Virus record (IMG/VR): IMGVR_UViG_3300031718_000021
Coordinates: 1-41,091 of that record
DNA length: 41,091 nucleotides
DNA from: a virus
Direction: 5' to 3' (one strand)
The translations under genes and the position numbers were made by a program. Shown piece after piece: positions 528 to 17,997 of this stretch. The notes beneath the pieces were generated by a model. That model did not search any database and was not told the DNA's origin. It saw only the letters and a list, made by a program, of their open reading frames with translations. The number at the start of each line of letters is the position of its first letter. The first letter of the stretch is position 1.

Positions 528-2033
528 TTAATTGCTGGTGAAGACGGCGAGGTTCAGCCAGGAAGCTTCTTGTCCGGAGACGCCTGTGCTGACGGTGTTC
601 GTCATCACCGTGCCGCCGCCGACTGAGTTGGTGAAGAAACTAGCAGTAAAGGTCACGACTGCGTTGTTCGCATAAGTCGACCGAGAGAAGGCCGCGCCGC
701 CGATCCCATAGTTCGCGGTGGAGCCAGTGTTGGCCGTCTGTACCGTATCGAAAATCGTCGTCCCATCGCTGACCCAGGCCACATCGGCGCCGGAGTCGGT
801 CTGGGTAAAGTAAGCGCTGAAACTGGCTTCGACTCGGCAGGGGCAGCCGCTCGCCGGCATAGTGAGGGCGTGCGATAGCCAACTCGTCGCGGTGTTCGCC
901 GAGACCGCAACTGGTGAGCCGAGCGTGGTGGTCGACTGTAGCTGTACCGAGGTAGGAGTGTTGCAAGTCAGAGGCAGGGTGCCGGAGAAAGTCAGGGACT
1001 GCCCGCCGGTGCAAGTGGGAAGGGTCGAGGCGACAGGATCGGCGCTGGCGACTCCCACCGCAATCTGACTCGCTCCCAGCGGCAAGCCGCCGATCGCCAC
1101 ACCCGCGCCCTCGTTGAGCGCGACCGAATGCGCGGCAGCTCCGGCGTTCACATTTCCCGAGCCTCCGGGCGCGATGACCTGGCCGTTGACCGTGATTCCG
1201 AGAACGCTGTTGCAGCTCGAGACGAGTTGTTTATTCGCATCCGTGCAGATGGGCTGGCTTACCGTCAATCCCTGGTCGTAGAAATTGGTCACGCCGAAGC
1301 CCGAACTGCCGCCGCCGAAGTTATAGGTCGCTGGACCCAGAGCAGTGGCGGTTACTCCGTTCCAGATGAAGCTCTGCTGCGTCGTCACATTGGCGGTCGA
1401 GGAAATGGTTGTGCCGCCCACCGAGTTCGCGGGCCAACTGAAGGTATGCCCGCCCGCTCCATCCTGGGTGATCTCCCAGGTGATGATGCCTGGCGGAGTG
1501 ACGCCCACTGCGGTCAAGGGCTGGGCGCTGGCGTTGCCGGTGAGGGTGATTTCAAAAAGCTGATTCTGCGCGGAATCCTGAAAGGCAGGCGTGGGCGAGT
1601 AGGGAACCACTGTGGTCAAAGTGGTCGACCCGCCGCCGATCCCGTTCACGGTGTAGAGCGTGCTGCCTGACGAACATTTCGTGCCACCCGCTGCTTTTAC
1701 CAGGAAAGTGTAGGCCACGCCCGCCTGCAGCCAGATGTTCGCGCTTCCGCCGGCCGTCAGGATCACCGGATTCTGGTTCGGCGTGCCCCCGGTGTAATCG
1801 GTATAGGTTCCGAGCGGAGTGGTCGAGTTCACCTGGTAGGTGAATACGCAGCCAAAGGCCAAGGGAACGCCGGACTGATCGAAGAACTGGAGTTGCGGCA
1901 GCGGAGCGAGAACCACGGCGGTTTGCGCGTCGGCTGGCACAAACGTAACCAGTAGTAATAGCACCAGGGCAAAGGCGTACACACCACCTCGGTGGTCTAG
2001 GAAGCGGCGGATGGGGAAGATAGGATTAGGCAT
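528..2033 (-). CDS. Tail fibre protein with N-terminal signal peptide
   Basis: This 501-residue protein has a signal-like N-terminus (basic MPNPIFPIRRFLDHRGG, then a hydrophobic stretch ending at ADAQ). It is followed by the common phage fibre/spike N-terminal repeat: a conserved FFDQSGVPLAFG stretch, then TPLGTYTDYTGGTPNQNPV and GGSANIWLQAG. The remainder is Gly/Ser/Thr-rich beta sequence. The ATG at 2033 is chosen over one at 2051 because GGAGT lies 11 nt upstream of it. That ATG sits in a CATG shared with the start of the rightward gene at 2032. A secretion signal on a fibre is odd, because virion proteins normally assemble in the cytoplasm. The domain call is secure; export is predicted from sequence only. 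Confidence 0.75.
   Translation of the reverse strand: MPNPIFPIRRFLDHRGGVYAFALVLLLLVTFVPADAQTAVVLAPLPQLQFFDQSGVPLAFGCVFTYQVNSTTPLGTYTDYTGGTPNQNPVILTAGGSANIWLQAGVAYTFLVKAAGGTKCSSGSTLYTVNGIGGGSTTLTTVVPYSPTPAFQDSAQNQLFEITLTGNASAQPLTAVGVTPPGIITWEITQDGAGGHTFSWPANSVGGTTISSTANVTTQQSFIWNGVTATALGPATYNFGGGSSGFGVTNFYDQGLTVSQPICTDANKQLVSSCNSVLGITVNGQVIAPGGSGNVNAGAAAHSVALNEGAGVAIGGLPLGASQIAVGVASADPVASTLPTCTGGQSLTFSGTLPLTCNTPTSVQLQSTTTLGSPVAVSANTATSWLSHALTMPASGCPCRVEASFSAYFTQTDSGADVAWVSDGTTIFDTVQTANTGSTANYGIGGAAFSRSTYANNAVVTFTASFFTNSVGGGTVMTNTVSTGVSGQEASWLNLAVFTSN
2021..2026 (+). promoter_or_regulatory. -10-like element of leaderless gene at 2032
   Basis: TAGGAT ends 5 nt before the ATG at 2032, so transcription would begin at or next to the start codon. 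No good -35 is visible at 16-18 bp. The same arrangement recurs before 7462, 9414, 10699 and 17136. An AGGA inside the same stretch could also act as a weak SD, which makes this the least clean of the set. Confidence 0.45.
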
Positions 2034-2352
2034 GGTCGAGAACGACTCCATCGAATACGAGATCGTGAACTGGGAAAAACGCGAAGTCTGGAAGTGCCAG
2101 GGCAGCTGCCAGCGCTTTCGTCACCGCCCCACGGTGAAAGGGTTGATGCCGGCGATCTGTTGCGGCGAGCCGGCGAAACTTGTGACTAAGTACGAGCAGC
2201 CGAAACCCTTCACCGTGTCTGAACCTTTACCGGCTGAATTCGGGAAACCGAGCGACGAAGGAATTGAATTAGCGATGGCCGAGATGCAGGCCGCTGCTCT
2301 CCTCTTTGTAGAGCCTACTCAGGAGCTTCAGAAGCGTGCTTATAAATCGTGA
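2032..2352 (+). CDS. Cys-rich small protein (rightward microgene 1)
   Basis: This 106-residue protein of unknown function begins MVENDSIEYEIVNWEKREVW. It has a KCQGSC pair and a second pair ICCGEP about 25 residues later, consistent with a zinc-ribbon fold, then an acidic helical C-terminus. It lies opposite to the surrounding virion genes. Its start overlaps the fibre start at CATG, and its 3' end overlaps the end of the leftward ejection gene by 38 bp, tail to tail. Balanced composition and Cys pairs argue for a real gene rather than an antisense shadow. Function unknown. Confidence 0.65.
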   Translation: MVENDSIEYEIVNWEKREVWKCQGSCQRFRHRPTVKGLMPAICCGEPAKLVTKYEQPKPFTVSEPLPAEFGKPSDEGIELAMAEMQAAALLFVEPTQELQKRAYKS

Positions 2353-4282
2353 GATTGACATTCGCCTTCGGGCCGCCTTGCTGAATCGCGGCGAGGGCGC
2401 GGTGTCTGCCTTGCGCGCCGATGATGTTGTTGTCTCCATCGAGGTGTAATTCAACGTTGGGTATTCCGTTCTTTGCGATCTGCTGGCGATGGTAGAAAAC
2501 GCTATCCAAATCGCCCTGCGTTTTGAGCACGCTGTTCTCGTCGGCTCCGACTTTCTGTAAAAATCCGCGCGCCGGCACTTGCCCGGTCTTCGTCGCTGCT
2601 ACTGGCCGGTTCTGAATATCGGCGATTCCTTCGTCGGCATCGGTGACACTTCCCGGCGCTCCCGCCTGGCCCGCTTCGCCCCTGGCCAAACGATTGAGCA
2701 TGGGTTTTATTCCCGCCGCTTTCTTCTTGAGCACTTCGTCGAGCATTTGCTGCAACGGGGCGGTCATATCTTCCTCGGGTCCGGGCACGCGGGCTGCGCT
2801 TGCGCTGGCTTCGTCGGCGGCATTCTTAGCCGCGAATTCACGGAGCCGCGAGAGAACCGGATCGGTACTAGGCTCCGGCGTCGACGGGACTGTGGCTGCG
2901 GGCTGTGCCACTTTCGATTGAGGGGTGACCTGCGCGGCTTGCTGCTTTTGCGCGACGACGTCAGAAAACTCCCTGGCTCCGGTTTCGGGATCGACGACCA
3001 CCGTGCGCGGAGCTGGCTTTGCTGTCGCAGCGGCGCGTTGCGCAGGCTTTTTCGGAGGAGCGGGTTCATCCATGCCTCCAGCGAAGGGCTTGTTCTCACC
3101 GGTGGCGTCTAAAACTTTTTGCGGCGGCGGTTCGTCAGCTCCGCCGGCGAAGGATTTGTTTTCTGCGGTAGCGTCGAGTTCGGGAGCGGTTACGCCTTTC
3201 GCTTTGGCAGCGGCTTCGGTTCCCGCCTTGTATACATCCGCAGCAACATCGCCCACGTAGGGAATTCTGCGAATCGCGGCAACCGGGAGTTTCTTCGCAG
3301 CTGCTTTGACTCCGGCTTTGACGCCTTGTCCCGCTGCTGTGTCCGCCGCTTCGCTGAGCGCCCCGGCAGTTCCTTCCACACCCTTCGCCACAGCAGCAGC
3401 GGCAATCGGCGCAGCCGCATGCCCGTAGACTCCAGCAACATCTCCTTCAGCGGCGCTTTGCTCCATGCCGGGAACGTTGACTCCCACGACTTCCGCCAAA
3501 GGGACAGTGACATTGCGATAGAGCGATCCGTGAGCCTTACGTTCGGGAGAATTGTTGGCCGCTGCATCGGAGGCCTGCTCTTCGTGAAGCTTGCGCACCA
3601 GGTCTTCGTGCGTGTCGGTAAGCGGATCCGTCGCACCGTGCCATAGCCCCTTAGCCATCCCTCCGAGATCGGCGCCCATGGAGGCCCAAAAGCCGGGATG
3701 CTGGACCGGTTGATCTTCGATCGGGATGATCCTCGCGCCGGCTTTCACTGCGTCCTGTAAGCGATCGGCGGGAACCACACCTGGTGAGCCATCGGGCGCG
3801 GTGATATGAATCCCCGGTTTCGCTCCGCCCTTTACGGCCGAGGCGAGCTGCTCCGAGGGAATATCTCCGATCGAGCCATCAGGCGCAAAAATGGGAACGG
3901 TGCTCATCGGCTTGGATTGCGCCGGCGAGAAGTCAGCGCCGATCGTTCGCCCAACTGGCGGGACAACATCTGCGGCCGCAGGATTCGAGACATCCATCGT
4001 CGGCTGGCCTTGCGTGTTGCCGGTCTGTGCGCTAACGCCTTGCGGCAGCCGCATGGCCGGGATCGCGGAGTCGGTGTCGAGCTGAGGCTGAACGTGATCG
4101 GGATTGGGAAAAACAGGACCATTGAAATTTGCGGGCGCGCCTGCGTCGGAGTCTTCAACGCCTGCAGCCTGGCGTTGCGGTCGCGTGAGCGCGGCGTACT
4201 CTGCCGGAGTCAGCGGACGAGAGCGTTTGTCGGGCGGGAGTTGCTGGTACTGCTCCCACGTCAGAGTCGGGGCGGTAGCCAT
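2315..4282 (-). CDS. Large ejection-type virion protein with ParB-like C-terminus
   Basis: This 655-residue Ala/Pro/Lys-rich protein occupies the third ejection-protein position after the genes at 5792-6529 and 4286-5788. The N-terminal half holds low-complexity and Ala-rich helical stretches, including an Ala/Gly-rich segment around residues 280-330 that could insert in membranes. The last roughly 90 residues are different and globular. They contain LHLDGDNNIIGAQGRHRALA, resembling the GxxRxxA core of ParB/sulfiredoxin-type nuclease domains. By position it may correspond to a P22 gp16-type DNA-ejection protein, but sequence alone does not prove this. The start at 4282 follows the previous stop by three bases. 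Confidence 0.6.
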   Translation of the reverse strand: MATAPTLTWEQYQQLPPDKRSRPLTPAEYAALTRPQRQAAGVEDSDAGAPANFNGPVFPNPDHVQPQLDTDSAIPAMRLPQGVSAQTGNTQGQPTMDVSNPAAADVVPPVGRTIGADFSPAQSKPMSTVPIFAPDGSIGDIPSEQLASAVKGGAKPGIHITAPDGSPGVVPADRLQDAVKAGARIIPIEDQPVQHPGFWASMGADLGGMAKGLWHGATDPLTDTHEDLVRKLHEEQASDAAANNSPERKAHGSLYRNVTVPLAEVVGVNVPGMEQSAAEGDVAGVYGHAAAPIAAAAVAKGVEGTAGALSEAADTAAGQGVKAGVKAAAKKLPVAAIRRIPYVGDVAADVYKAGTEAAAKAKGVTAPELDATAENKSFAGGADEPPPQKVLDATGENKPFAGGMDEPAPPKKPAQRAAATAKPAPRTVVVDPETGAREFSDVVAQKQQAAQVTPQSKVAQPAATVPSTPEPSTDPVLSRLREFAAKNAADEASASAARVPGPEEDMTAPLQQMLDEVLKKKAAGIKPMLNRLARGEAGQAGAPGSVTDADEGIADIQNRPVAATKTGQVPARGFLQKVGADENSVLKTQGDLDSVFYHRQQIAKNGIPNVELHLDGDNNIIGAQGRHRALAAIQQGGPKANVNLTIYKHASEAPE

Positions 4283-4285
4283 TGC

Positions 4286-5788
4286 TTATTGACTTCTGGG
4301 CTTGCCGCCGAACTGTGAGAAGAAATCCCCGCCAGCGCCTGGCTGTGTCTGCGTTTGAGGTTTCGCGCCCAGCCGGCCTTTGATCGAATCGATGTCCTGC
4401 TGATATGACTGATGGCGATTCGCCATGTCTTTCTTCAGCGTTTCGACTACTTTCATCGTCGCGGAAAATGAAAGGTTGCCGTCGACCACATCCTGCGCTT
4501 CTTTTTTCTGGGTGTCACTCAACACTCCGGAGCCGGTGGCCGAACTGAGCACTTTCGCTACTTCCGAGGATGCGGTTTGCCGTGCTGCGTTCAACGCGGC
4601 CATATTATCGGTGCCGATCATCCCGCCTGTGATCATGCGGAGTGGGACGTTGGCAAACTTCGCGCCCAGGTCGGGAATCTTCGCCGCCGTCTGCGCGTAG
4701 AGATCGAGATTCTTGAGCGCCGTGCCTTCAAAGGCGTTAATCGAATCGAATTGCTTTTGCACCTGTTTCAACGAGGCAGTATCCGCCTGGAAGGTGGCCT
4801 TGTTCGACGCGAGATCCTGATCGGGATGAAGCTCGGCCGAGCGCTTGATGATCGCGGAAGTGGTTCCCGGCGAACGCGCAAAACCGGAAGGCAGCGTGCC
4901 ATCTTTTGAGTAGCGTTCCGCCGCCTGGTCGAGTGCGCTGCCTTGGCCCGGCCCGCCAAGCTGGTTTCCCAGCACCATTGCCATCGGAGATTGCTTCGCT
5001 TTCCAGGAAACAAAACTCGCGGGGGTGCGCTGCTCCGGTGGCAGTGTTTCTCCCGGCACTTTTGGCGCGGTGAGATAGGAACGCAATTCCGCCTTGTCCG
5101 GAGCTTCCATCGGCCCACCTGGCATTTCTGCCTGCAACCTCTGTTGGGTGGTTGTGGCTTCAGTGGCCTTGGTTTGAGCTTCACTTTCTTTCGCGCTGAT
5201 CTCTCGATCCTTTTCGGCTTCCGCCACGATCGCCGAGTGCAGGCGGATCGCGGGCAGGTGCTGCGCGAACACATCGTCACCGGGATATTGTTGCGGCTCT
5301 TTCGAGACGTCCACGCCCGCACTTTGGAGCGACTGGAGTCCGCGTGAGTACACATCCTGCTTTTGCTCTGGCGCGGCCTGGCTGACCTGGTCATGCACGC
5401 CCTGGATGAGATCGGCTTTCTTTTGCTCCTGCGTAAATTGCTCATCGGACAAAGAGGCGAGGTTCTTGCGCTGTGCGATGAGCCCCTGCTGGGCTTGTAG
5501 CGCCGCCGTCCCTGAACCACCGTTCGAGGTCACGAGCTTCGGAATGTCGTTGATCGAGTGTTGGGAGGGATCAAATTGCGTGATGGTCTTCGTCAACGCG
5601 TCCTGATCCTTCATCTGCTGTTGACGAATCTGATTCTCCTGCTGGGCTGCCGCCGTCTGCTGGGCAAGCAAGGCGGTCTGCTGCTTTTCCTGCGCGGCTT
5701 TCGTATATTCGGCCAGCGCGTTCTGGTTGAGCTGTTCCTGTCCTTGCTCGACCTGCGGGAGACCAGCGAGAGGTGCGTAAGCTGCCAT
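4286..5788 (-). CDS. Ejection-type virion protein, coiled coil
   Basis: This 500-residue protein is rich in Gln, Ala and Lys, with long predicted coiled-coil stretches in residues 20-70 and 180-220. A central motif of the type RYSKDGTLPSGFARSP recurs in phage virion-injection proteins. The C-terminus is Gly/Gln-rich. It lies between the two other ejection-type genes with 3-bp spacings, so all three are probably co-translated. The likely role is to leave the capsid with DNA and help form the periplasmic conduit, as P22 gp7/gp16/gp20 do. The assignment rests on position, composition and the central motif. Confidence 0.6.
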   Translation of the reverse strand: MAAYAPLAGLPQVEQGQEQLNQNALAEYTKAAQEKQQTALLAQQTAAAQQENQIRQQQMKDQDALTKTITQFDPSQHSINDIPKLVTSNGGSGTAALQAQQGLIAQRKNLASLSDEQFTQEQKKADLIQGVHDQVSQAAPEQKQDVYSRGLQSLQSAGVDVSKEPQQYPGDDVFAQHLPAIRLHSAIVAEAEKDREISAKESEAQTKATEATTTQQRLQAEMPGGPMEAPDKAELRSYLTAPKVPGETLPPEQRTPASFVSWKAKQSPMAMVLGNQLGGPGQGSALDQAAERYSKDGTLPSGFARSPGTTSAIIKRSAELHPDQDLASNKATFQADTASLKQVQKQFDSINAFEGTALKNLDLYAQTAAKIPDLGAKFANVPLRMITGGMIGTDNMAALNAARQTASSEVAKVLSSATGSGVLSDTQKKEAQDVVDGNLSFSATMKVVETLKKDMANRHQSYQQDIDSIKGRLGAKPQTQTQPGAGGDFFSQFGGKPRSQ

Positions 5789-5791
5789 GGT

Positions 5792-6529
5792 TTATAACCC
5801 CAATCCGAGAGTCGCCCACGCGGGCATGTTGGAATTTGTCGCGAGCGAACTGGCCCCGCTGTTCACATCTCCCGAGACGCCGTTGATCATGCCTTGAATC
5901 GCATTGTTCGATCCGAGGATTCCGCCCGCCTTGGCTTGCGCTGCGTTGTTGATCTGCAGGGCTTGCTGCTGAGCCGCGGTGAGATCGATGTTCGCGGTGT
6001 TGCCGGCCACGCCAAGATTGGTCGAAGCCAGCTGCCCGGTCGAGGAAAGTCCGAGATTCGCGCCGCTCTGGGCTGTCCCCACATTGGTCTGATAGGCGTT
6101 CAGGGCATTGTTGTAGGTCTGCTGATAGGCGTTCTGAGCGAGGTTCTGGCCGTAATTTTCGAGCGCGGTGCCGGTGTTGCCGGACATCAGCGTGCCATTC
6201 GCCGCGGCGTTCTCGTCGATCGCCTGCGTCCCCTGCTGCTGCGCGAAGCGGTAGCCCGGAGTCTGCTCCGCCTGTTGCAGCGTGGGAGCGGTGAAGCCGT
6301 TTTTAATGTAACCGGCGAGCGCGTTCGCGCCCGTCGATCCGACCGACTGATACGGCTGTTCCGCAGAAGTGACATTCGAGAGCGCCGTCTGCTGCGCGGT
6401 ATCGGCCGCAGTCTGATTCTGCTTTTCGAGCCCCTGCGCCTGCTGCGCGCCCGTAACTAAAGCGCCCGATGCGCTCTTCTGTGCATTCGATCCGAGTATC
6501 CCGCTGACGATGGAGCCGACGATTGACAT
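5792..6529 (-). CDS. DNA-transfer (gp7-like) virion protein
   Basis: This 245-residue protein starts MSIVGSIVSGILGSNAQ. It contains the TPGYRFAQQQGTQAIDENAA core followed by GTLMSGNTGTALENYGQ, a signature widely found in podovirus DNA-transfer or ejection proteins. The rest is Gln/Asn/Ala-rich helix. It opens the ejection cassette. The start at 6529 is preceded by a tandemly duplicated 13-bp segment carrying AGGT. The family call is fairly firm; which P22 protein it replaces is inference. Confidence 0.7.
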   Translation of the reverse strand: MSIVGSIVSGILGSNAQKSASGALVTGAQQAQGLEKQNQTAADTAQQTALSNVTSAEQPYQSVGSTGANALAGYIKNGFTAPTLQQAEQTPGYRFAQQQGTQAIDENAAANGTLMSGNTGTALENYGQNLAQNAYQQTYNNALNAYQTNVGTAQSGANLGLSSTGQLASTNLGVAGNTANIDLTAAQQQALQINNAAQAKAGGILGSNNAIQGMINGVSGDVNSGASSLATNSNMPAWATLGLGL

Positions 6530-6531
6530 GA

Positions 6532-6559
6532 ATTTGACCTAGAAGGATTTGACCTAGAA
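6532..6559. repeat. Tandem 13-bp repeat in ribosome-binding region
   Basis: ATTTGACCTAGAA occurs twice with a 15-bp period (6532-6544 and 6547-6559). On the minus strand this duplicates an AGGT-bearing leader directly upstream of the gene starting at 6529, giving two candidate SD positions. Confidence 0.8.
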
Positions 6560-6564
6560 AAGCT

Positions 6565-7104
6565 TTATTCCGGTTTCGAAATTCCCAGACAGACCTGATC
6601 GCACAAGACGCCGCCACGCAACTTCGACTTCACGTTCACCCCGTAGATGGCAAAGCCCGCGCGCCGCGCAAAGCGGATCGCCAGCTTGTTATCGCGGGCA
6701 ATTTCCCCCACGAGCCGCCGCGCCGTCGTGTTCTGCCACATCCATCCGAGCATCATCTTGAAACTCGTGAGCGCCTGATTCCCGTAGCTGCGCGGGAGAA
6801 ACGCCATGTGGGCCTTCCAGCACGCCCAGGTATCCGGGATGAAGACGCCCAAACCGAACGGGCCTTGCTCGTCTGTCGACAGCAAGTAAGTCACGAGATC
6901 GCTTTCGATCGGCTTCCACGCCTCCGGGTTTGTTGTGAAGTCGTCGGAGACATGGGCAAAGATGCGCGGGTGTGTGATCAGTTCGCGGATCGCCCGGTAA
7001 TCGCGCGTGCGAAAGATTTTGCTCGAATCGCCCGCCGAGGGGAGTTTTCCCGCAATGCGCGGCTCCCGATACATTTGCTCGAGCGCCCTGATCTCGTTTT
7101 CCAT
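6565..7104 (-). CDS. GNAT-fold acetyltransferase-like phage protein
   Basis: This 179-residue protein begins MENEIRALEQMYREPRI. It has the usual GNAT pattern: a central sheet region with an FGLGVFIP strand, WKAHMAFLPRSYGNQAL in the acceptor/coenzyme region, then RRLVGEIARDNKLAIRFARR followed by GF, which matches motifs A and B. Similar small GNAT-like proteins are common in phage structural blocks, with unknown substrates. The start at 7104 overlaps the previous stop as TGATG, with GGAAAG 7 nt upstream. An upstream in-frame ATG at 7122 is possible. Confidence 0.65.
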   Translation of the reverse strand: MENEIRALEQMYREPRIAGKLPSAGDSSKIFRTRDYRAIRELITHPRIFAHVSDDFTTNPEAWKPIESDLVTYLLSTDEQGPFGLGVFIPDTWACWKAHMAFLPRSYGNQALTSFKMMLGWMWQNTTARRLVGEIARDNKLAIRFARRAGFAIYGVNVKSKLRGGVLCDQVCLGISKPE

Positions 7105-7448
7105 CAGCCGACTTTCCACCATTTCGTTCCGTCGCTCTTGATCTTGAAATGACTGGTCGCCGATCCGATCGCACCGGTGAGCGTGAGGTTTCCGCCCTGC
7201 ACCCCGGTGAGCGTGTACGTGTTTCCGTCGGAGGAAGTCTTCACGTAGGTGATTTCCTTGCACTGCCCGGTTTGTCCGCCGCTCGATACGCCCGCGGCTG
7301 GCGCGGCCTCGCTGTAGCTGCCCTTCGAAGTGTCGACCTCGTAGAGTGGCGCGATTCCCTGCACGATCAGCATCCACTGGTAGTCGGTCGGCGAAAGCGC
7401 GGAGGCTTGCGTCGTCGGCGGCGGCGGAAGATAGGGAGTAGTGGGCAT
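7104..7448 (-). CDS. Small hypothetical virion-region protein
   Basis: This 114-residue protein has a Pro/Thr-rich N-terminus (MPTTPYLPPPPTTQ) and a C-terminal beta-rich part (GNTYTLTGVQGGNLTLTGAI) ending in KWWKVG. No catalytic motif is seen. It is coupled by TGATG to the GNAT-like gene. Its ATG lies 14 nt from the oppositely directed start at 7462, and no SD is visible before it. It may be a minor head or tail component. Confidence 0.55.
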   Translation of the reverse strand: MPTTPYLPPPPTTQASALSPTDYQWMLIVQGIAPLYEVDTSKGSYSEAAPAAGVSSGGQTGQCKEITYVKTSSDGNTYTLTGVQGGNLTLTGAIGSATSHFKIKSDGTKWWKVG

Positions 7449-7449
7449 T

Positions 7450-7455
7450 TAGACT
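7450..7455 (+). promoter_or_regulatory. -10-like element of leaderless gene at 7462
   Basis: TAGACT is followed by exactly 6 nt and then the ATG at 7462. No SD and no clear -35 are present. The hexamer lies in the 13-bp gap between two divergent starts. Confidence 0.5.
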
Positions 7456-7461
7456 TACAGA

Positions 7462-7686
7462 ATGGAGAAGTTCAATCCGCGCTATGCGCTCATTCCAGCA
7501 GTGCTGATCTGCCGTCTGTGTAAACAGGAGATTCCAAAAGGAACGCCGTTCGCCAAAATCATCGAGTCGTCGAACACACTTAATTTTCTAAAAGGAATCA
7601 CAACAGAAAGCTGGGCGCATCCTGAGTGCATAGAAGAGTTGTCCCCCAAAATGTCTCAGGCGGCCGCTGGCTCCGCCTCCACATAG
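7462..7686 (+). CDS. Cys-rich small protein (rightward microgene 2)
   Basis: This 74-residue protein begins MEKFNPRYALIPAVLICRLC. An ICRLC pair and, about 37 residues later, AHPECIEEL (His-x2-Cys) form a plausible Zn site of the CxxC...HxxC type. It sits between the leftward genes starting at 7448 and ending at 7656, overlapping the latter by 31 bp tail to tail. There is no SD; the TAGACT hexamer 6 nt upstream suggests a leaderless transcript. Function unknown. Confidence 0.65.
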   Translation: MEKFNPRYALIPAVLICRLCKQEIPKGTPFAKIIESSNTLNFLKGITTESWAHPECIEELSPKMSQAAAGSAST

Positions 7687-9398: not shown

Positions 9399-9401
9399 TG
9401 C

Positions 9402-9407
9402 TAGAAT
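9402..9407 (+). promoter_or_regulatory. Extended -10 element of leaderless gene at 9414
   Basis: TGCTAGAAT (9399-9407) is an extended -10 (TGn plus TAGAAT). Exactly 6 nt separate it from the ATG at 9414. No -35 is needed for an extended -10, and none is obvious. Confidence 0.55.
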
Positions 9408-9413
9408 GTCTCC

Positions 9414-9593
9414 ATGCAAGTTTGGAAGGTTGGCGATTACTGCGCTGCGTGCGTGAAGGTGATTCGCGAGAATCCCGGAGCGCTCTGCCAGTTCTCGCTA
9501 CTCCTGCCAGACGGGAAGATGTGTTTGGGCTTCTGCATCACCGATTTAAAACCGGACTCATTTATCGATTACCCGCCGGAGCTTTACACATGA
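9414..9593 (+). CDS. Cys-rich small protein (rightward microgene 3)
   Basis: This 59-residue protein begins MQVWKVGDYCAACVKVIREN. A YCAAC pair is followed by LCQFS and MCLGFC, giving five Cys in the central part, probably a zinc-binding ribbon. It lies in the gap between the gp10-like start at 9398 and the gp4-like gene. Its stop overlaps the next rightward start as ATGA (9590-9593), so the two form a two-gene unit. No SD is visible; see the extended -10 directly upstream. Confidence 0.6.
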   Translation: MQVWKVGDYCAACVKVIRENPGALCQFSLLLPDGKMCLGFCITDLKPDSFIDYPPELYT

Positions 9594-9916
9594 ACCGCCG
9601 CTCGTTTCTTTCACTCTTCTCCGCTGGCGTCGCAGGCCTGGCGCTCGAGCAGGCGATTCCGCTGGGCCGGGTGTGGAGCTTCCCGAAAGAGATCGTGATT
9701 GCTCCGCCGTTGGCATCACTAGATTGGCCGCAAGATTTTCCGCGCAGAATGGCGGTGGGATCAACCGTCCGCATTCGCTTTCCACAACGCTTTCTCATTC
9801 GCGACTACATTGGCGATTTCAGCCAGCCGCCGCGATATGGGGTTTATGTCGCCACTCCAGAAGGACTTGAACCTACTGCGGCCTTCCTCCCGGATAGTTC
9901 CCGTACGCCCAGTTGA
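9590..9916 (+). CDS. Tat-signal peptide fused to a coat-like segment
   Basis: This 108-residue protein starts MNRRSFLSLFSAGVAGLALE, a textbook twin-arginine signal (NRRSFL, then a moderately hydrophobic Ala/Gly stretch). Residues from about 60 on read AVGSTVRIRFPQRFLIRD. This resembles AVGTTITVKYPQQFTIRN near residue 45 of the coat protein in this genome, a segment typical of P22-type coats. The start at 9590 has GGAG 8 nt upstream and is coupled by ATGA to the gene before it. It overlaps the 3' end of the gp4-like gene by 44 bp. A longer frame open from 9398 is less likely. Export by Tat and any role in assembly are inference. Confidence 0.65.
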   Translation: MNRRSFLSLFSAGVAGLALEQAIPLGRVWSFPKEIVIAPPLASLDWPQDFPRRMAVGSTVRIRFPQRFLIRDYIGDFSQPPRYGVYVATPEGLEPTAAFLPDSSRTPS

Positions 9917-10682: not shown

Positions 10683-10686
10683 GGGT

Positions 10687-10692
10687 TAGAAT
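10687..10692 (+). promoter_or_regulatory. -10-like element of leaderless gene at 10699
   Basis: TAGAAT is followed by exactly 6 nt and the ATG at 10699. It is the same hexamer as before 9414. No -35 at normal spacing and no SD. Confidence 0.5.
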
Positions 10693-10698
10693 CCGGGA

Positions 10699-10887
10699 AT
10701 GATTGGCTTACTGGTGAGAACGCCGAGCGTTTGCTGCCCGCAATGCAAGATGGAGCTGTTAAAAATCCTCAGCACCAATGATCGCGTGGTCTTCCAGCAT
10801 CCCGACGGTGATGCGGTGAGCGGGTGCTCGAAGATCAACAGACTCTTCTCGATGAAACCTGTGCTGATCGAGGCCGAAGAAATCTAG
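10699..10887 (+). CDS. Cys-rich small protein (rightward microgene 4)
   Basis: This 62-residue protein starts MIGLLVRTPSVCCPQCKMEL. It has a CCPQC pair and a later GCSK; a zinc site is possible but incomplete. It fills the gap between the gp4-like gene and the gene ending at 10884. Its TAG overlaps the opposing TAG by four bases, a minimal tail-to-tail overlap that argues for a selected gene boundary. Leaderless start as for its sister genes. Function unknown. Confidence 0.65.
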   Translation: MIGLLVRTPSVCCPQCKMELLKILSTNDRVVFQHPDGDAVSGCSKINRLFSMKPVLIEAEEI

Positions 10888-11402
10888 CTCTCGTCCGCCT
10901 CGTCGAGCGCCGCCAGTTCCTCTGCGGACATCTCCTCTTCGCGCTTGGGCGCGTGATCGGCAACAGCAGCAATTCCGGAGCGGCTCACTTTTGAGTAGTC
11001 GTGTCCTGGCGACGGCTTCAGCTGGAAGCCCCGTTTGAGCGCGGCTTTCTGCTCTTTCTCGGCGTTCGGACCGGCGGCAATCGTAAGCACGCGTCCGCTC
11101 TCGTGGTGATAGAGCACCTTGGGGAATTCGTTTTTGGGATCATGCGGGTTGTAAGGGCGGCGCGGCGGATTGTTGATGTCAGTGATGGCCGGGCCTTGTT
11201 GGGGTTCATCCACGGTGAAATGGTTTCGCACTGGTGTGACTGGAGACATGGTTTCCTCAGAGAGTGATTCGGGATTTTGCTGCTGCCGCTTTTGTTCTAC
11301 GAGCTGCTTGCGTGTCGTGGTATCGCGGGCCACGCCTTCGAGATCGAATTCGAGCGGCCAGCGCTCGCGCGGCGCTTTGCGGCTGGCTTCATTCAGGGGC
11401 AT
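10884..11402 (-). CDS. Hypothetical charged protein of the head region
   Basis: The open frame encodes 172 residues, rich in Glu, Lys and Pro. Two starts compete. The long form begins at 11402 (MPLNEASRKAPRERW) without an SD. A shorter 121-residue form begins at 11249 (MSPVTPVRNHFTVDE) with GAGGA 4 nt upstream. The C-terminal part YHHESGRVLTIAAGPNAEKE, followed by a positively charged loop and an acidic tail ending LDEADES, looks globular. No family is recognised. It lies between the exported protein and gp4 and could be a head accessory. Confidence 0.55.
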   Translation of the reverse strand: MPLNEASRKAPRERWPLEFDLEGVARDTTTRKQLVEQKRQQQNPESLSEETMSPVTPVRNHFTVDEPQQGPAITDINNPPRRPYNPHDPKNEFPKVLYHHESGRVLTIAAGPNAEKEQKAALKRGFQLKPSPGHDYSKVSRSGIAAVADHAPKREEEMSAEELAALDEADES

Positions 11403-11426
11403 CGCTTCAAAGTAAAACGCGGGGAG

Positions 11427-11463
11427 AAAAAAGGGGGAGCAGAGCAGGTTCGCCCCGCTCCCC
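11427..11463 (-). terminator. Rho-independent terminator after the coat/decoration genes
   Basis: On the minus strand GGGGAGC (11463-11457) pairs with GCTCCCC (11440-11434) across a 16-nt loop and is followed by C and six T (11432-11427). It ends transcripts of the coat gene and the exported protein behind it. Confidence 0.75.
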
Positions 11464-11482
11464 TGGCAACAGGCAAAGCAAT

Positions 11483-12427
11483 TTAGTAAAACGCGAAGTA
11501 CGGGCCTTGGAGCGTGGTGTAGGCGCTCGGAGGCGTGATGGTTGCGGGCACGGTTGCGTAGGTCTGGCCGGTGTAAATCTGGGTGAAGAATCCGGCGTTC
11601 CCATCGGCGGTCGCAATCAGGTTCAGGGTGTCGGTACTCGATTGCGCCTGCGAACAGCCCACATACCAGGCCGGTCCCACCGCGAAGTATTGCGCGGTGA
11701 AGGGAAGCGCCTGATACTGGCTGGCGGTCCCGCTGGTGGTGGTCGAGCCGCTGTTGGCCAGCAGGTTGCCCGCCGCATCGTAAAGGATCACGTTGCGGTG
11801 GCCGTTGGCGGTCACTGTCCCGTTCAAAATCTGCAAGCCCGTCAGAAGTTTGTTGACGGGCAGATAGATTTGCGAACAGTACATGCTGGTGTTAGTGGTG
11901 GCCGTCGAGGTTCCGACGCCAGTCAACACCGCGCCGCCGGGATCGGGAGCGAAAATAACCGCCGCGGTCAAGGCGGTGACTCCTCGCACCCACAATCCAC
12001 CTAAGCAGTCCGAGTAGACGTTGTTGTTGATGTCGATGTAGGGCACCACAAACAGCGTGCTGCGCGTGCAGCTTCCGAAGGGATAGCCCGGCGGAGTGGG
12101 CGACTGAAAATAGCTCGGAGGCCCGTACCAGACCCGGGCTCCGTTTGGATGCGTGCTTACCCGCGAGCTGGGACCTGCTCCGCGCGTCACCGACACCGTG
12201 GTAGAAGTGACAGCGTTTACGAAGTCGGCTTCGCCCTCAATGAAAAGCATCGTGTTGCCGGCCGTGATCCCGGTAGTCGAAGTCAGCCGGAAGGTGTTGG
12301 CTTGCGAAGAGGTAGACGTAATCGCCGCCGCAAGCGTGGTGGCGGGAATGACGGTTTGCGCGAACGACAGGGAAGCCGCCAGGAGCAAACCGCAGAGAAT
12401 CAGCGAGTTCTTTAGATTGTTTTTCAT
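11483..12427 (-). CDS. Exported decoration-like protein next to the coat gene
   Basis: This 314-residue protein starts MKNNLKNSLILCGLLLAASL and has a clear Sec signal ending at SFAQ. The mature part contains TTGITAGNTMLFIEGEADFV and HPNGARVWYG, strand-turn patterns of the kind seen in phage fibre or capsid decoration proteins. A later Ig-like or jelly-roll-like half follows (LLTGLQILNGTVTANGHRNV). It lies 52 bp after the coat stop and is followed by a terminator, so it is probably made in large amounts. The exported state is unusual for this position. Confidence 0.65.
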   Translation of the reverse strand: MKNNLKNSLILCGLLLAASLSFAQTVIPATTLAAAITSTSSQANTFRLTSTTGITAGNTMLFIEGEADFVNAVTSTTVSVTRGAGPSSRVSTHPNGARVWYGPPSYFQSPTPPGYPFGSCTRSTLFVVPYIDINNNVYSDCLGGLWVRGVTALTAAVIFAPDPGGAVLTGVGTSTATTNTSMYCSQIYLPVNKLLTGLQILNGTVTANGHRNVILYDAAGNLLANSGSTTTSGTASQYQALPFTAQYFAVGPAWYVGCSQAQSSTDTLNLIATADGNAGFFTQIYTGQTYATVPATITPPSAYTTLQGPYFAFY

Positions 12428-12479
12428 GGTTGTGTGTCCGGGGTATGACTTTTAAATCACACTTGGCGGAACTCTCCTT

Positions 12480-13742
12480 TTAGGCTCCGAGCAGTCCAAC
12501 GCAAGCGTTGTCCTGGTAGAGGTTGCCGAATCCGCCGACCGTATCGAAGCGGTTGATCTGCAACGAGTGGAAGGCATCCCAGGCTTTCACGTAGCGCACC
12601 GGGATTCCGGTGGCCTTGTCTTCCGCCTGCGAACGGGCTTCCACTGCTTTCGGCAGATAGAAGCGCATGCCGACGATGGCGAAGGCCATCGGAGTAAGCG
12701 CCAGGCCGATGGTTCCGACCGCTCCGTTCGGGTTGGTGGTGCCAGGGAAGAGCGTGAGCGCCGCGCCGCCAGCGGGCAAAGCGTCCACGTTCTGATACTG
12801 GCTGGGCTCGGCGCCATTCGGCCCATAGATCGCGGGCAGGATGGAGAGCACATCGGCCGCATTGCCTCCGCCGATCCCCACAAAGTTCTGGGTCACGGTA
12901 AAGGTTTGCGGCGTCAGCGGGCCGGGTGGTCGGCGCGAGCGCGGGTTGACGAAGTTCACGTTGAGAACCGAGAACTTGTCGCCTTGATTGAACGTATCGC
13001 CAGCGGTGCAGGTGATCGCGAGCGAAGTCCCCGACTGGTTTCCGCCGTTGACGGTGACCGCACCCGCCCAGGTTCCGGCAGTGTGGGAGTAGAGGTTCTG
13101 CTCTTCGAAAATATCGAAGGTTTTCAGTTTCCCCATCGAGCCTTCCTTAAAGGCTTCGGTAATGGCGTCGGTCGGTTGGAACAGCGACGTCACCGGGGTG
13201 TTGATGGAGTTGGTCTGCATCGAAGAGGAAATCAATGCAGCCCGTTTCTTCGAAAGATACGAGCCGGCCTTCTGCAGCAGCCGGGCGCGCGCCTGATCGA
13301 GAAACACTACGCTGGTCGGATCGGTGCCGAGTGCGCCGACGATCTGCGAGCAGTTGTTTTTTGCGAACAGGGCCGCGCGGGAGTCCCATTCGTTTGCGAG
13401 CTGCACGCCGGCCGGAGCCAGGTACTGTTCGCGGATTTCTTCTTCCGAGCGCTCGGCCTTGACCGCAGCTTCGTAGTCATCCCACTGGAAGTCGATGCCG
13501 AACGGCTCATCGAGCGAAATCGTGGTCGAAATGCGGTTGATGCCTTGCGGGTTGTATCCGAGTCCGTTCCGGATGGTGAACTGTTGCGGGTATTTGACAG
13601 TGATTGTGGTGCCGACGGCCCACGTTTTCTCATAGTCCTTTTCCCAGTCGTGATTGAAGTATTCGGCAACCTTCAAAGCGTTCTTGAGGTTGCGCAGCAC
13701 CTCCATGGAGATCCAGGAGGTGTTTAGAAATAAGTTGGGCAC
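12480..13742 (-). CDS. Major coat protein, P22 gp5 type
   Basis: This 420-residue protein matches the P22 coat family. The N-terminal region has AVGTTITVKYPQQFTIRNGL near residue 45, then a helix with DFQWDDYEAAVKAERSEEEI. The middle has the KTFDIFEEQNLYSHTAG insertion-like region. The part near residue 240 (GDTFNQGDKFSVLNVNFVNP) matches GDKISFAGVKF of P22. The start is GTG at 13742 with GAGGA 8 nt upstream; the scaffold stop is 3 bp away. It forms the capsid shell. Confidence 0.85.
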   Translation of the reverse strand: MPNLFLNTSWISMEVLRNLKNALKVAEYFNHDWEKDYEKTWAVGTTITVKYPQQFTIRNGLGYNPQGINRISTTISLDEPFGIDFQWDDYEAAVKAERSEEEIREQYLAPAGVQLANEWDSRAALFAKNNCSQIVGALGTDPTSVVFLDQARARLLQKAGSYLSKKRAALISSSMQTNSINTPVTSLFQPTDAITEAFKEGSMGKLKTFDIFEEQNLYSHTAGTWAGAVTVNGGNQSGTSLAITCTAGDTFNQGDKFSVLNVNFVNPRSRRPPGPLTPQTFTVTQNFVGIGGGNAADVLSILPAIYGPNGAEPSQYQNVDALPAGGAALTLFPGTTNPNGAVGTIGLALTPMAFAIVGMRFYLPKAVEARSQAEDKATGIPVRYVKAWDAFHSLQINRFDTVGGFGNLYQDNACVGLLGA

Positions 13743-13745
13743 GGT

Positions 13746-14870
13746 TTATTTCCTCTTGAGGCGAGCGAGTTCCTTCGCGTTTTGCGTGCGCTGGTAGGTC
13801 TCGAAATCGCCATCGTCTAGGGCCTGCTCGACCGCGTCTTTCGCCACGGTTCCCTTGCCGGAAACCTGGTGCGGCGGCCGCGAAGCCTGGGTGATGGGTT
13901 TTGCAGAGGAAGAGGAAGAAGATTTGTCGCCGGGTGCGCCCGATCCGGAGCCGGAAAGCGAGACCTCGATCTCCATCAGCTTGCGGAACTGCCGCTGCGG
14001 AGTGATGAGGCTTTGAAACTTGCCGGTTTTGGGATCGTGGTTGGCGTAGAAACCCTGAAGGATGTCCGGGTGCTGGCCGAGGTGATAGAGCACTTCGCCG
14101 GCATGATCGGAATCAAGCAGGAAAAGCTCGGTCACCGAACCTTTCGGGATGACCAGGTCCTCGCTCAGTGCGACTTGGTCGAAGTCCGCGTATTTGGCGC
14201 GCAGCGGCTCGAACTTCTTTTGGAGGTTCTGGCCGATCTCGCGCTCCGCGCGCTGCTGCTCGGTGAGTTGCTGCGTCTTCGACTGCGTCTCCTGCCATTC
14301 CCGGAGGGTTTCCTGTTTCAGCCAGCCGTCTTTCGCGTCTTCGTACTCCGCGTAGTTGGCGTACTTGGCTTTTCCGGTTTTCGCATCGACGTCGTCGATC
14401 TTTGGTTTAGGCGCAGCTTTCGCGGGCGTCGTCTCGGTTGCAGCTTGCGAGGTCTGCTTACTGTCACTGCGGGTTTCCGGTCGAGATGAATGCGTGCCTT
14501 CGAGGCGGGCGACTTTTTCGCGCAACTCTTTCAGCTCGCGTTCGCGTTTCTGCCAGCGGTTCTCCGAGGTGCGCGCGGTCTTCGATTGCGCGGGTCCTTT
14601 TCCGTTCTTCTCTTCTTCTGCGGCTTGTGCGGCTGCCGAGGCCGCGGCGGTATCGGCGTCACTGGAAGCTGCCGAGTCTTCCTCTTTCTCTGACGGAGTT
14701 TCGTTTTCTTTTTTGGCCGCTGCCGAGGCGTCCGTTTTTTCTGACTTGAATTCTCCGGTGAGGCGATAGTGCGGATCGTCCGGCAGAAAGCCGGTTTCCA
14801 TCGCTTCGTCGAGAGAATGCGGAATTTCGAGTTCGGCTGCCGAGGCCGATTCTTCACTGACTGTTTTCAT
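13746..14870 (-). CDS. Scaffolding-like protein
   Basis: This 374-residue protein is very acidic and lysine-rich with Ala/Ser runs. A coiled-coil lies around residues 110-230 (RWQKRERELKELREKVARLE and the following Glu/Gln-rich region). The C-terminus is basic (NAKELARLKRK), a coat-binding tail typical of scaffolds. Position between portal and coat is that of gp8 in P22. No protease domain is visible. The start at 14870 has a weak SD (AAAGGT). The call rests on position and composition. Confidence 0.65.
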   Translation of the reverse strand: MKTVSEESASAAELEIPHSLDEAMETGFLPDDPHYRLTGEFKSEKTDASAAAKKENETPSEKEEDSAASSDADTAAASAAAQAAEEEKNGKGPAQSKTARTSENRWQKRERELKELREKVARLEGTHSSRPETRSDSKQTSQAATETTPAKAAPKPKIDDVDAKTGKAKYANYAEYEDAKDGWLKQETLREWQETQSKTQQLTEQQRAEREIGQNLQKKFEPLRAKYADFDQVALSEDLVIPKGSVTELFLLDSDHAGEVLYHLGQHPDILQGFYANHDPKTGKFQSLITPQRQFRKLMEIEVSLSGSGSGAPGDKSSSSSSAKPITQASRPPHQVSGKGTVAKDAVEQALDDGDFETYQRTQNAKELARLKRK

Positions 14871-14933
14871 GGGTTACCTTTTTGGGTGTTGAGTGCCGGA
14901 TGTGACGCGGGACCGGCGGCGCGAGAGGTGCTT

Positions 14934-17120
14934 CTAAACTTGGGTTGATCCTTGCGGCTGCGGCTGATCCGGCGGAGCCGTAGCCTGCGCCAGCGCGATC
15001 TTCTGGTCGGTCTGCTGCGCGTCGTGCTGGTGTTCCATGGCCTGCAGTCCGGCTTCGTGCGCGGCGCCGTGGTTCTCTTTCCAGAAGGTCTCGTACATCT
15101 GTTGTTCCTGCGAAGCGTGCTGTGACTTTGCGGTGATCTCCGCGATCAGCACCTTGATGTCGTTTGCCAGCTGCGCCCGCTGGTTGTCGCCGTCTTCCTT
15201 CATCTGCTGAATCAGCATCTTGGTCTGCTGTTCGAGAACCTTTCCCGCCCGCTCCATGTGCAGCCCGGAGTTTTCCTGCATCGCCTGCTGCAACTGGGCC
15301 TGCAGCTGCTGAATCGCGGCCTGGGCTTGTGGCGGCATGTTCGGATCGGCCGGCGGCGGATCGAATACGTCCGCGATCTGCTGGCCGATCGGACCGAGTG
15401 TGGGACGCATGCGGATGCCGAGCGCGAAAACTTTGGCCGCCGGCGTTCCGGGTTGGGGAAGGTTGGCGATGTTCTCGATCAGCGAATCGACAAACTCGTC
15501 CTGCTCCTGGCGCTCCGAGTCCTGCGACGGGCCGGTCGAGAGCGTGACATCGAATTCGCCCTTGCCGGTGTGGAGATGCCCTGCGTCGAGGCCCTGCACC
15601 TCATAGCTGCCATCGTCGCGGAGAGGGTGCGAGGTGTTTCCGACGAGCTGCATCGTCGAGCGCTTGCCATCGGGCTGGCTGATCGGCATGTCGCGCTGGG
15701 TGTCGATGATCGGGGTGATCAGCTCATTCACCTGCCAGCCCACATTGTGCAGGAAGCCGTTTTCATAGCGGTCGATGAAGGGGAAGCTGCCGAGCGAGAT
15801 CATGTCGTCGATCTTCTCTAGCGCCACGCCGGATTTCTGATTCCGTCGCTGCGCGGCGTCGGGCAGAGGGCTGATGCCCATGCCAGCCTGGATTGCGCGA
15901 ACGGCGGCATCCTTTGCGATTTCCCATTCCTGGAAGTCCGGAGAAAAATTGTTGAACTGTGGGGGCGGGGCGGCCTGCTGTCCGCTGGCGTCGAGAATCA
16001 GGTCGTATTGCACGTAAGCGTGGGGAACCTTGGTGAGTTCGTCCCAGGCGTCTTTGTCAGTTTCAAACTGCCCGACCGCGCCAACAAACGGCGTCTTCGG
16101 AAGCTTGCCGGCCATCTCGCATTCGCCTGAGGCCAGATAATCGAGCAGCATCTGCGGATCGCGGGCGAAGCGCACCATCGAGAGCAGCTGCCGCTTGGCG
16201 ATGCCGCCTTCGGTGGTCCAGCGCTCCGGACCCAGGCAGGAGATGATGGGGATGCGGCTGCCATCCCAGGGCACCTCGTCGAGGATCTCGAGGCCGTTGG
16301 TCATGTACTGGAACACTTTCGGGATTTCGACTTTGCGATCGCGCTTCACTTCGCCGGTTACGCCGTGTTCCTTCGCGAGCTTCCATTCCTTCTCGTCGAA
16401 GATGACCGGCCCTTTTTCGGTCTCGATCAGCAGTAGAGTTTTAAAGCTCGACTGCACCTTCCAGAACTCGCCGCGCTGCACGTATTTCTCTTTGATCCAG
16501 TCGGTGATGGTCGAATCGTTCAAATCCTGATCGCCGAAGTCGGTGACGCGCGCCTTGGGATAGAGCTGCTTGAATTGGCTTTTGGGAATCAGCTCGAGCA
16601 GAAAGCCGTCTTTCACATCGCAGGCAGAGGGCTGCGTGTAATAGGGCGAAAGCAGCACCGTGTCCGGGTTCGCGATCGGCTTGATGAGAATTTCCTGATC
16701 GAAGCTGGAATCGTCTTTGTACTCGGTGCGGATCACAGCGTAGCCATACGAGCGTTCCGTCATCGACTGAAACGCGCCGAGGTAAATCGGCTGGGCTTGG
16801 GAGCGCTCTTCGATTCCCATGATCGCCGCCGAGCGTTTCTGCGCGTCCTGGTCGTTCGCTCCGCTGCCTTTGGGAATCGCCTTGATGGCGCGCTTCGATT
16901 TGCGCACGTTGCCGTTCACCTGGGCGAGAAACTGATTCAGCTGGTCAAGGTGAATGCAGGGGCGTCCTGAACCTTTGCGCGCGTCGCGATCTTCCTGGGT
17001 CCATGGGCCTTCGATCGAGATGGCACGCATGTCTTCGGCGGCTTCGTCGCGGATGTCCTTCCAGGCGTCGCGGTAGTCCTGGTAGCACTCGCGGATTTCT
17101 TTGGGATCGGGGGTGGACAC
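14934..17120 (-). CDS. Portal protein, P22 gp1 type
   Basis: This 728-residue protein starts with GTG at 17120. It has the P22-portal N-terminus (RPCIHLDQLNQFLAQVNGNV), the wing region (AGKLPKTPFVGAVGQF), and a long C-terminal coiled-coil (QAQAAIQQLQAQLQQAMQEN) that fits the barrel helices of large P22-like portals. The length is close to P22 gp1 (725). It forms the dodecameric DNA channel of the head. No SD is obvious before the GTG; the divergent start of a rightward gene lies 16 nt upstream. Confidence 0.85.
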   Translation of the reverse strand: MSTPDPKEIRECYQDYRDAWKDIRDEAAEDMRAISIEGPWTQEDRDARKGSGRPCIHLDQLNQFLAQVNGNVRKSKRAIKAIPKGSGANDQDAQKRSAAIMGIEERSQAQPIYLGAFQSMTERSYGYAVIRTEYKDDSSFDQEILIKPIANPDTVLLSPYYTQPSACDVKDGFLLELIPKSQFKQLYPKARVTDFGDQDLNDSTITDWIKEKYVQRGEFWKVQSSFKTLLLIETEKGPVIFDEKEWKLAKEHGVTGEVKRDRKVEIPKVFQYMTNGLEILDEVPWDGSRIPIISCLGPERWTTEGGIAKRQLLSMVRFARDPQMLLDYLASGECEMAGKLPKTPFVGAVGQFETDKDAWDELTKVPHAYVQYDLILDASGQQAAPPPQFNNFSPDFQEWEIAKDAAVRAIQAGMGISPLPDAAQRRNQKSGVALEKIDDMISLGSFPFIDRYENGFLHNVGWQVNELITPIIDTQRDMPISQPDGKRSTMQLVGNTSHPLRDDGSYEVQGLDAGHLHTGKGEFDVTLSTGPSQDSERQEQDEFVDSLIENIANLPQPGTPAAKVFALGIRMRPTLGPIGQQIADVFDPPPADPNMPPQAQAAIQQLQAQLQQAMQENSGLHMERAGKVLEQQTKMLIQQMKEDGDNQRAQLANDIKVLIAEITAKSQHASQEQQMYETFWKENHGAAHEAGLQAMEHQHDAQQTDQKIALAQATAPPDQPQPQGSTQV

Positions 17121-17129
17121 GGCTAAAAT
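17101..17129 (+). promoter_or_regulatory. Promoter of leaderless gene at 17136
   Basis: TTGGGA (17101-17106) and TAAAAT (17124-17129) are 17 bp apart. TAAAAT ends exactly 6 nt before the ATG at 17136. This is the best promoter of the leaderless set. It lies over the start of the portal gene on the other strand. Confidence 0.55.
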
Positions 17130-17135
17130 TCAGCG

Positions 17136-17411
17136 ATGAGTTGGGATTGGAATGGTTGCCCTAAGTGCGAATGCCAAGTATTTCGGATGGATTGTCGGCC
17201 CGAACATCCAGGGACATGCTGGTTTGGAACGTGCGACTGCTGCGGGAGCATTTGTGAATTTCGCACTGACGGACAGTTGAAACTCACTGGACCAGCACTG
17301 GCTTCGCCGCGCACTTCGGACACAAACACTTCTCATCATCGAAAACCCAGCCGGCCAGCCGCGCCCGGGCGTAGCCGTCCTGCTCATCCCACACCCGATG
17401 CCGCTGAGTGA
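17136..17411 (+). CDS. Cys-rich small protein (rightward microgene 5)
   Basis: The frame encodes 91 residues. The first half (MSWDWNGCPKCECQVFRMDC, then TCWFGTCDCCGSICEF) has ten Cys, at least two ribbon-like pairs. The second half is rich in Pro, Arg, Ser and His and overlaps the 3' end of the leftward gene ending at 17284 by 128 bp, so the natural gene may once have been shorter. No SD; see the promoter at 17101-17129. It sits between the portal and the gene after it, like the other microgenes. Confidence 0.6.
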   Translation: MSWDWNGCPKCECQVFRMDCRPEHPGTCWFGTCDCCGSICEFRTDGQLKLTGPALASPRTSDTNTSHHRKPSRPAAPGRSRPAHPTPDAAE

Positions 17412-17997
17412 GGTGGCAGGCGGAGCATTCGAGCGTCATCGTGGCGCGCCCGGGAACGTGCTTTGCGCAGTAGGTTTTCAACACGCCATTGCGTTCGGCC
17501 CAGCGCCAACCGGCAGCCTGCGCGTCTTTCCTAGCCTGTTTGCGAGTCACAGCAGGAAAAGCTCCGAGCACGGTGCAGTGAGTGCAGACGAATTCCATCA
17601 CGCCTTTGGCTTCCGCGTGTTTCTGCGCTTCAATGGCTTCCTGCGCCGCTTTCTCCAGTTTGTATTCGTCGGATTCCACTTCGCCGACCTTGAACGGCTG
17701 CGGCCAATGAGGATTGTCTTTGTGGATCACATCCCACTGTTCGCGCTCGGCCTTTTCGTGGATCTCGTGCTCGTAGACGTCGAGCGGCTTGGCGATGAAA
17801 CTCAGCTTGGGAGCAATAGCTTCATAGGCGATGCGGCGCTGATCGGGCCTCGTACTCATAAGCAACCCGCGAAAAGAATCGTGGGTGCGGTAGAGCGTCG
17901 CGATCTGAGAGAAGAGATTCGGATCGTCGATGCCACCGAAGCCAACTTTCTTGAGCTCGTGGTTGATGCGCTGGCGCTGATCGAGAGAGATCGACAT
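17284..17997 (-). CDS. Zinc-ribbon protein of the head region
   Basis: This 237-residue protein has an N-terminal helical part (MSISLDQRQRINHELKKVGF) and a C-terminal Cys-rich part with CTHC, YCAKH, CSAC and CPKC, consistent with two zinc ribbons. Between them lies WAERNGVLKTYC. No enzymatic motif is seen. It starts at 17997 directly after the stop of the previous gene (TAGATG) and comes before the portal. Possible roles are DNA or protein binding during packaging; unknown. Confidence 0.6.
   Translation of the reverse strand: MSISLDQRQRINHELKKVGFGGIDDPNLFSQIATLYRTHDSFRGLLMSTRPDQRRIAYEAIAPKLSFIAKPLDVYEHEIHEKAEREQWDVIHKDNPHWPQPFKVGEVESDEYKLEKAAQEAIEAQKHAEAKGVMEFVCTHCTVLGAFPAVTRKQARKDAQAAGWRWAERNGVLKTYCAKHVPGRATMTLECSACHLTQRHRVWDEQDGYARARLAGWVFDDEKCLCPKCAAKPVLVQ

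Follow-up and report, generated by a model that had tools for sequence, protein, structure and literature searches.

Why should small genes that read against the late operon lie in the gaps between the virion genes of a P22-like phage? The question is raised by a soil phage, IMG/VR virus record IMGVR_UViG_3300031718_000021, of which all 41,091 bases (the window) were analyzed. The virion block of this phage reads leftward, and six rightward genes, m2032 to m17136, occupy five of the gaps within it (Table 1). Our best overall explanation, to which we give a probability of about 0.7, is that these genes are accessory cassettes that would be expressed from leaderless promoters of their own and would pass in and out of the gaps as phages diverge. 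The architectural part of this explanation, six moron-type accessory cassettes set against the late operon, is very probably correct.

Start signals of the rightward genes

A first reading of the DNA, made from its letters alone (the sequence-only reading), had described a TANNNT hexamer in front of five of the rightward genes, separated from the ATG by five bases at 2032 (N5) and by six bases at the other four (N6). All hexamers, starts and spacings were found as described. On the + strand of the window TANNNT-N6-ATG occurs four times, each time at one of these gaps (7462, 9414, 10699 and 17136), and on the - strand it occurs once. Divergent leftward starts lie 13-16 bp from the N6 genes, in agreement with the 16 bp limit given earlier. 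Unlike these four genes, m2032 combines the N5 spacing with a Shine-Dalgarno-like AGGA; this ATG and the start codon of the divergent leftward gene 528-2033 overlap (starts at 2032/2033). The sixth gene, m9590, is coupled to m9414 by an ATGA, as had also been noted.

In bacterial leaderless genes the first T of TANNNT lies at about -12 from the start codon (PMC3160421; for Deinococcus, PMC12340547), and the first T of the N6 hexamers is likewise at -12. The four N6 genes, with the hexamer about 12 bp upstream and no Shine-Dalgarno sequence, fit the layout of TANNNT-led leaderless genes and would be classed with them. The lack of a Shine-Dalgarno sequence, which the sequence-only reading had put forward, was borne out but is not distinctive, since 10 of 18 leftward virion genes lack one as well (crude motif scan). 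The leaderless genes described in PMC3160421 and PMC12340547 belong to host genomes, unlike the window cassettes, and in the titles and abstracts of literature joining leaderless, phage and TANNNT there was none on a phage gene set. A scan for sigma-70 -35/-10 pairs gave no excess over shuffles, and a -35-like hexamer was present only upstream of 17136.

Related phages were fetched by portal and coat protein and reoriented so that the virion genes read leftward; the core genes were mapped and every gap was measured. In a first set of 18 phages with 68 gaps of at least 100 bases, rightward open reading frames (ORFs) of at least 40 codons were searched for TANNNT-Nk-[AG]TG. The motif was found at k=6 in 32 cases and at any other k in at most 4. 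The leftward direction of the same gaps gave 0 at k=6, and 200 dinucleotide shuffles gave a mean of 0.9 and a maximum of 5 at this spacing. A second set of phages yielded 10 cases at k=6, at most 5 at any other k and 0 leftward. The TANNNT-N6 start layout is not a product of chance, and the hexamer-N6-ATG is conserved in homologous phages in both sets. The ORFs behind these promoters are mostly unrelated to one another, and common descent of the ORF is therefore removed as a simple cause of the motif.

None of the six proteins had a match above cut-offs in Pfam, PHROGs, NCBIfam or PADLOC. The description of most of them as Cys-rich suits five (9, 5, 4, 4 and 3 Cys) and not m9590, which has none. 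Beyond its Cys-rich part, m17136 is antisense over its last 43 codons to the 3' end of the leftward gene 17284-17997, and m9590 overlaps the following leftward gene at its 3' end, in antisense, with its last 14 codons; the ends of both proteins are therefore constrained by the leftward gene. As far as sequence evidence goes, the proposal of private -10 elements, a leaderless layout and real genes within a P22-like virion block is supported.

Table 1. Positions of the rightward genes, their -10 elements and other features of the window
Feature	Position	Strand	Remarks
TAGGAT, -10 element of m2032	2021..2026	+	N5 to ATG
m2032, 106 aa	2032..2352	+	homologues 69% identical in two phages
TAGACT, -10 element of m7462	7450..7455	+	N6
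m7462, 74 aa, CxxC protein	7462..7686	+	weak zf-PARP match below cut-off
TAGAAT, -10 element of m9414	9402..9407	+	N6; CATTGCTAGAATGTCTCCATG identical in L006
m9414, 59 aa, 5 Cys	9414..9593	+	L042 homologue 62%
m9590, 108 aa, RVWSFP family	9590..9916	+	Tat-like leader and variable tail
Coat-protein-like module of m9590	9719..9817	+	aa 44-76 resemble coat aa 31-63; 28.9 bits against the model of 37 coat proteins
TAGAAT, -10 element of m10699	10687..10692	+	N6; same place in L009, L011, L013, L014, L018
m10699, 62 aa, CPxC protein	10699..10887	+	homologues in L089 and L006
Major coat protein	12480..13742	-	phrog_283 E 3e-42; P22/Sf6 fold; family resembled by the modules
P22-like portal protein	14934..17120	-	PF16510 E 2.4e-88
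TAAAAT, -10 element of m17136	17124..17129	+	N6; TTGGGA 17 bp upstream
m17136, 91 aa	17136..17411	+	Cys-rich in first 48 aa
Short tyrosine recombinase	21482..22084	-	PF00589 44 bits; 200 aa; adjoins terminase

Gap occupancy, selection and the comparison with morons

In related phages (handles beginning with L), the gaps are empty, hold homologues, or hold unrelated genes behind the same type of promoter. Where the window has 166-477 bp, gaps of 2-60 bp were found in relatives. At the Hc3 gap the window and L006 share CATTGCTAGAATGTCTCCATG and then encode differing proteins, and L003, L009 and L015 have 2-6 bases only. In the window and in L089 the m10699 family lies in the 9873 gap; in L006 it is found in the portal gap. 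Both homologues start with TANNNT-N6-ATG, and other families likewise change gaps between phages. The homologues of m2032 (L079 and L080) keep N5 behind TAGGAT or TAAAAT. The m9414 homologue in L042 begins with TAAGAT-N6-GTG in a phage that also holds a member of the RVWSFP family of m9590, and the m9590 homologue in L006 occupies the same gap with the same coupling. The homologue search proposed by the sequence-only reading was thus successful for 2032, 9414, 9590 and 10699, and scans for m7462 and m17136 gave none.

The ratio of nonsynonymous to synonymous polymorphism (pN/pS) was 0.08-0.66, below 1 in every family compared, on small samples in which synonymous divergence (dS) was often saturated. 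Judged by these ratios, the families compared across phages are under purifying selection, in line with the earlier view that the frames are real. In L042 (3001-3832) three overlapping rightward genes stand in tandem, encoding an RVWSFP member, an 84-aa protein and a zinc-ribbon protein; cassettes can therefore form small operons. The Hc3-gap ORF of L002 (reoriented 4231-4875) resembles, by eye, a NUMOD4/HNH homing endonuclease.

As expected of morons, the inserts are absent or replaced in related phages (gap tables). The -10 element conserved at fixed spacing may be part of a promoter of their own. A terminator of their own is missing, and we therefore call them moron-type rather than classic morons in full. 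P22 itself carries an 86-aa opposite-strand moron of the late region, pid, and its relatives have nothing or another insert there (PMC3573128), so that the earlier claim of an arrangement undescribed in P22-like phages is not supported. Like pid, the window cassettes encode small proteins on the opposite strand of a P22-type late region and are absent or replaced in related phages. However, pid is a single locus between orf25 and orf80, led by a Shine-Dalgarno sequence and provided with a terminator, whereas in the window six genes are spread over five virion-block gaps, with a leaderless layout and no terminator. Opposite-strand morons are a known kind; what is new is how many gaps are occupied and how constant the leaderless promoter is. 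Our literature search, mainly of open-access papers, returned neither an account of leaderless cassettes as a set along a virion block nor one of coat-fragment proteins like those described below.

The sequences show a TANNNT -10 element directly adjoining a leftward start codon and a cassette ORF that begins six (once five) bases on and stops within or close to the leftward gene that follows; cassettes are gained, lost, swapped and moved between gaps. In the mechanism that we propose, host RNA polymerase would initiate at the ATG; the mRNA would therefore be leaderless and its expression independent of late transcription. Such expression would fit the lysogen or early infection, and head-on late transcription would shut the cassettes down during the phage's own virion production. 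Early lytic genes dispersed among the late genes and irrelevant to lysogeny could have the same host-type promoter layout, and a lysogenic state is only putative. We consider this alternative unlikely, as the tyrosine recombinase is conserved in the clade and P22 has a moron as its described opposite-strand insert of the late region.

Coat-like fragments in the RVWSFP family

The leader of m9590 has the form M(N/D)RRxFL...EQAIPxxRVWSFPKxIVI, and the family as a whole follows one plan: a twin-arginine translocation (Tat)-like leader, then RVWSFP, then a variable tail. A leader scan of viral contigs gave 48 loci, and the family has about 50 distinct members; it was absent from the characterized phages compared. 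The curated cut-off of TIGR01409 for a twin-arginine signal was passed by the L060 and L038 members and not by m9590 or the L053 member. Against a hidden Markov model (HMM) of 37 coat proteins, 22 of 50 distinct tails matched above 1.5 bits, compared to 4 of 1000 shuffled tails. The fragments are restricted to coat HMM positions 3-122, 234-269 and 371-407, regions that in the predicted coat model include the N-terminal arm, the long helix 100-130 and C-terminal strands. Another candidate module, the tail motif YSGxPPGxPPVAQLKS, was rejected because it corresponds to the antisense reading of the adjacent leftward gene at its 3' end (frame reasoning by hand). Structure prediction, which had been suggested for the small proteins, was run on m9590 and gave a predicted local distance difference test score (pLDDT) of 55, which is not usable.

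When 2048 ORFs (60-200 aa, 22 phages) were scanned without bias, all matches of at least 6 bits were short proteins that contain a coat-like piece. Nine of them are RVWSFP members, two are zinc-ribbon proteins (L100 and L108) and three are late-direction proteins (L014, L019 and L020). The zinc-ribbon cassettes hold one such coat fragment, and two unrelated heads carry the same module. The L108 head matches phrog_2670 (E 6.5e-5; Pfam DUF1660) and the L100 head does so weakly; unlike DUF1660/phrog_2670 proteins, both are fused to a coat-like module. The late-direction proteins (L014:7843-8355, L020:8025-8537 and L019:8358-8792, + in the locus) are 144-170 aa long and lie near portal and terminase; their ends match the coat C-terminal region at 8.6-20 bits. 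Other tails scored 5.2-10.5 bits against portal, Hc3, 9873-type and ejection proteins; with controls reaching 8.6, these weaker matches are no more than suggestive.

These modules did not match the coat protein of their own phage best: it ranked 37 of 37 in the window and about 18 of 37 on average over 13 cases. On this ground a recent copy of that phage's coat gene was rejected as their source, and the ranking is compatible with rival phages as the target. Two known systems invite comparison. Ty1 p22 is a truncated Gag that spoils Ty1 capsid assembly; this capsid fragment is a small protein in its own right, expressed from a separate promoter (PMC4599808). The cassettes would resemble it in logic only, a capsid-protein fragment being made separately from its own promoter; unlike Ty1 p22, the window family consists of short diverged pieces fused to unrelated heads and encoded elsewhere. 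Tab (tail assembly blocker) is prophage-borne and acts through the tape measure protein to keep other phages from assembling virions, according to the parts of PMC10884400 used here. Compared by description only, it shares with our proposal a prophage-borne block of rival assembly, by other means, and in those parts it is not described as built from a virion-protein fragment, unlike the coat-fragment proteins. By analogy, and as a tentative working guess, the coat-fragment members may be expressed in the lysogen as inhibitors that bind the coat protein of rival phages and disrupt the assembly of their capsids, which is the weakest step of our proposal. No firmer is the broader idea of a modular repertoire, in which interchangeable heads (Tat-like leader, zinc ribbon) might present coat, and perhaps other virion, pieces, would be expressed from leaderless promoters that oppose the late operon, and would act in trans as a weapon or shield directed at rival assembly.

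These proteins could instead be immunity decoys or sensors that saturate or imitate coat epitopes seen by host defense. The pieces are short, come from several coat regions and are each too small alone for the coat-subunit fold, and virion proteins trigger known defenses, such as Tha by tail proteins (PMC11087260). Yet no defense family was matched (PADLOC), the leader suggests export and no conserved partner gene was seen alongside, and we find this quite improbable. We rate equally low the view that the fragments are debris, with the leader gene acting as a recombination trap for virion-gene pieces that then decay. The varied tails would fit decay, as would the low-scoring similarities of tails to portal, Hc3, ejection and 9873-type proteins and the two coat pieces in changed order in L033 and in the L060/L097 member. 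However, V43, G44, P52 and F55, which are invariant in the coat, are kept in most 31-63 type modules after divergence to about 40-50% identity, and the module recurs on two unrelated heads.

Phage background, points of doubt and significance

By profile matches, the leftward genes are those of a P22-type virion and include portal, scaffold, coat, head closure and ejection protein. The best Foldseek matches of the predicted coat fold are CUS-3, Sf6 and P22, in a model that allows a domain-level reading only (mean pLDDT 56; predicted template modeling score, pTM, 0.61). With a P22-type portal and, in this model, a P22-type coat, the phage classes as a P22-like podovirus; coat identity to characterized phages is at most about 29%. 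The tyrosine recombinase has homologues in relatives and is kept next to terminase across the clade; its HxxR box reads HTLK, which makes its activity uncertain. Elsewhere in the window are a rolling-circle type replication protein (32897-34003, - strand; Rep_1 PF01446, 70 bits) in which an IS91-like zinc domain is weakly matched, and a 670-aa protein with NHL beta-propeller repeats (38171-40183, - strand) near a gene transfer agent (GTA)-type holin. Betaproteobacteria was considered as host from the bin label of one metagenome-assembled genome (MAG) contig, met in a coat search of species genomes. The label was not adopted because the leader model, applied to 100 genomes related to this one, added no more than two weak matches, to leader-type N-termini.

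Several observations weigh against the explanation that we favor. The phages compared are related, and the 32 and 10 motif cases are not independent events. Intrinsic terminators occur at chance level, with none just behind the cassettes, unlike P22 pid. A lysogenic lifestyle is suggested by a single gene, that of the 200-aa tyrosine recombinase. Some family tails match no virion protein, and a Tat-like leader would put the fragment at or outside the membrane, a bad fit to capsid poisoning. The view that the promoters matter and not the proteins, antisense RNA silencing or timing the late virion genes and the ORFs merely keeping the transcript translated, would suit the opposite orientation, the terminators at chance level and the extension of ORFs over the 3' ends of leftward genes, but it is very unlikely in view of the many distinct proteins under purifying selection, the presence or absence of inserts gap by gap with no fixed position, and the recurring zinc-binding and leader motifs.

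If the genes are moron-type cassettes, as we propose, most junctions of the virion operon would be possible plug-in sites, with a ready promoter beside a start codon and exchangeable ORFs. Some of the uncharacterized small proteins in soil phages would thereby be explained, and TANNNT-N6-ATG against the operon would serve as a search rule. The coat-fragment proteins, if they interfere with capsid assembly, would be the phage counterpart of capsid-derived restriction factors.
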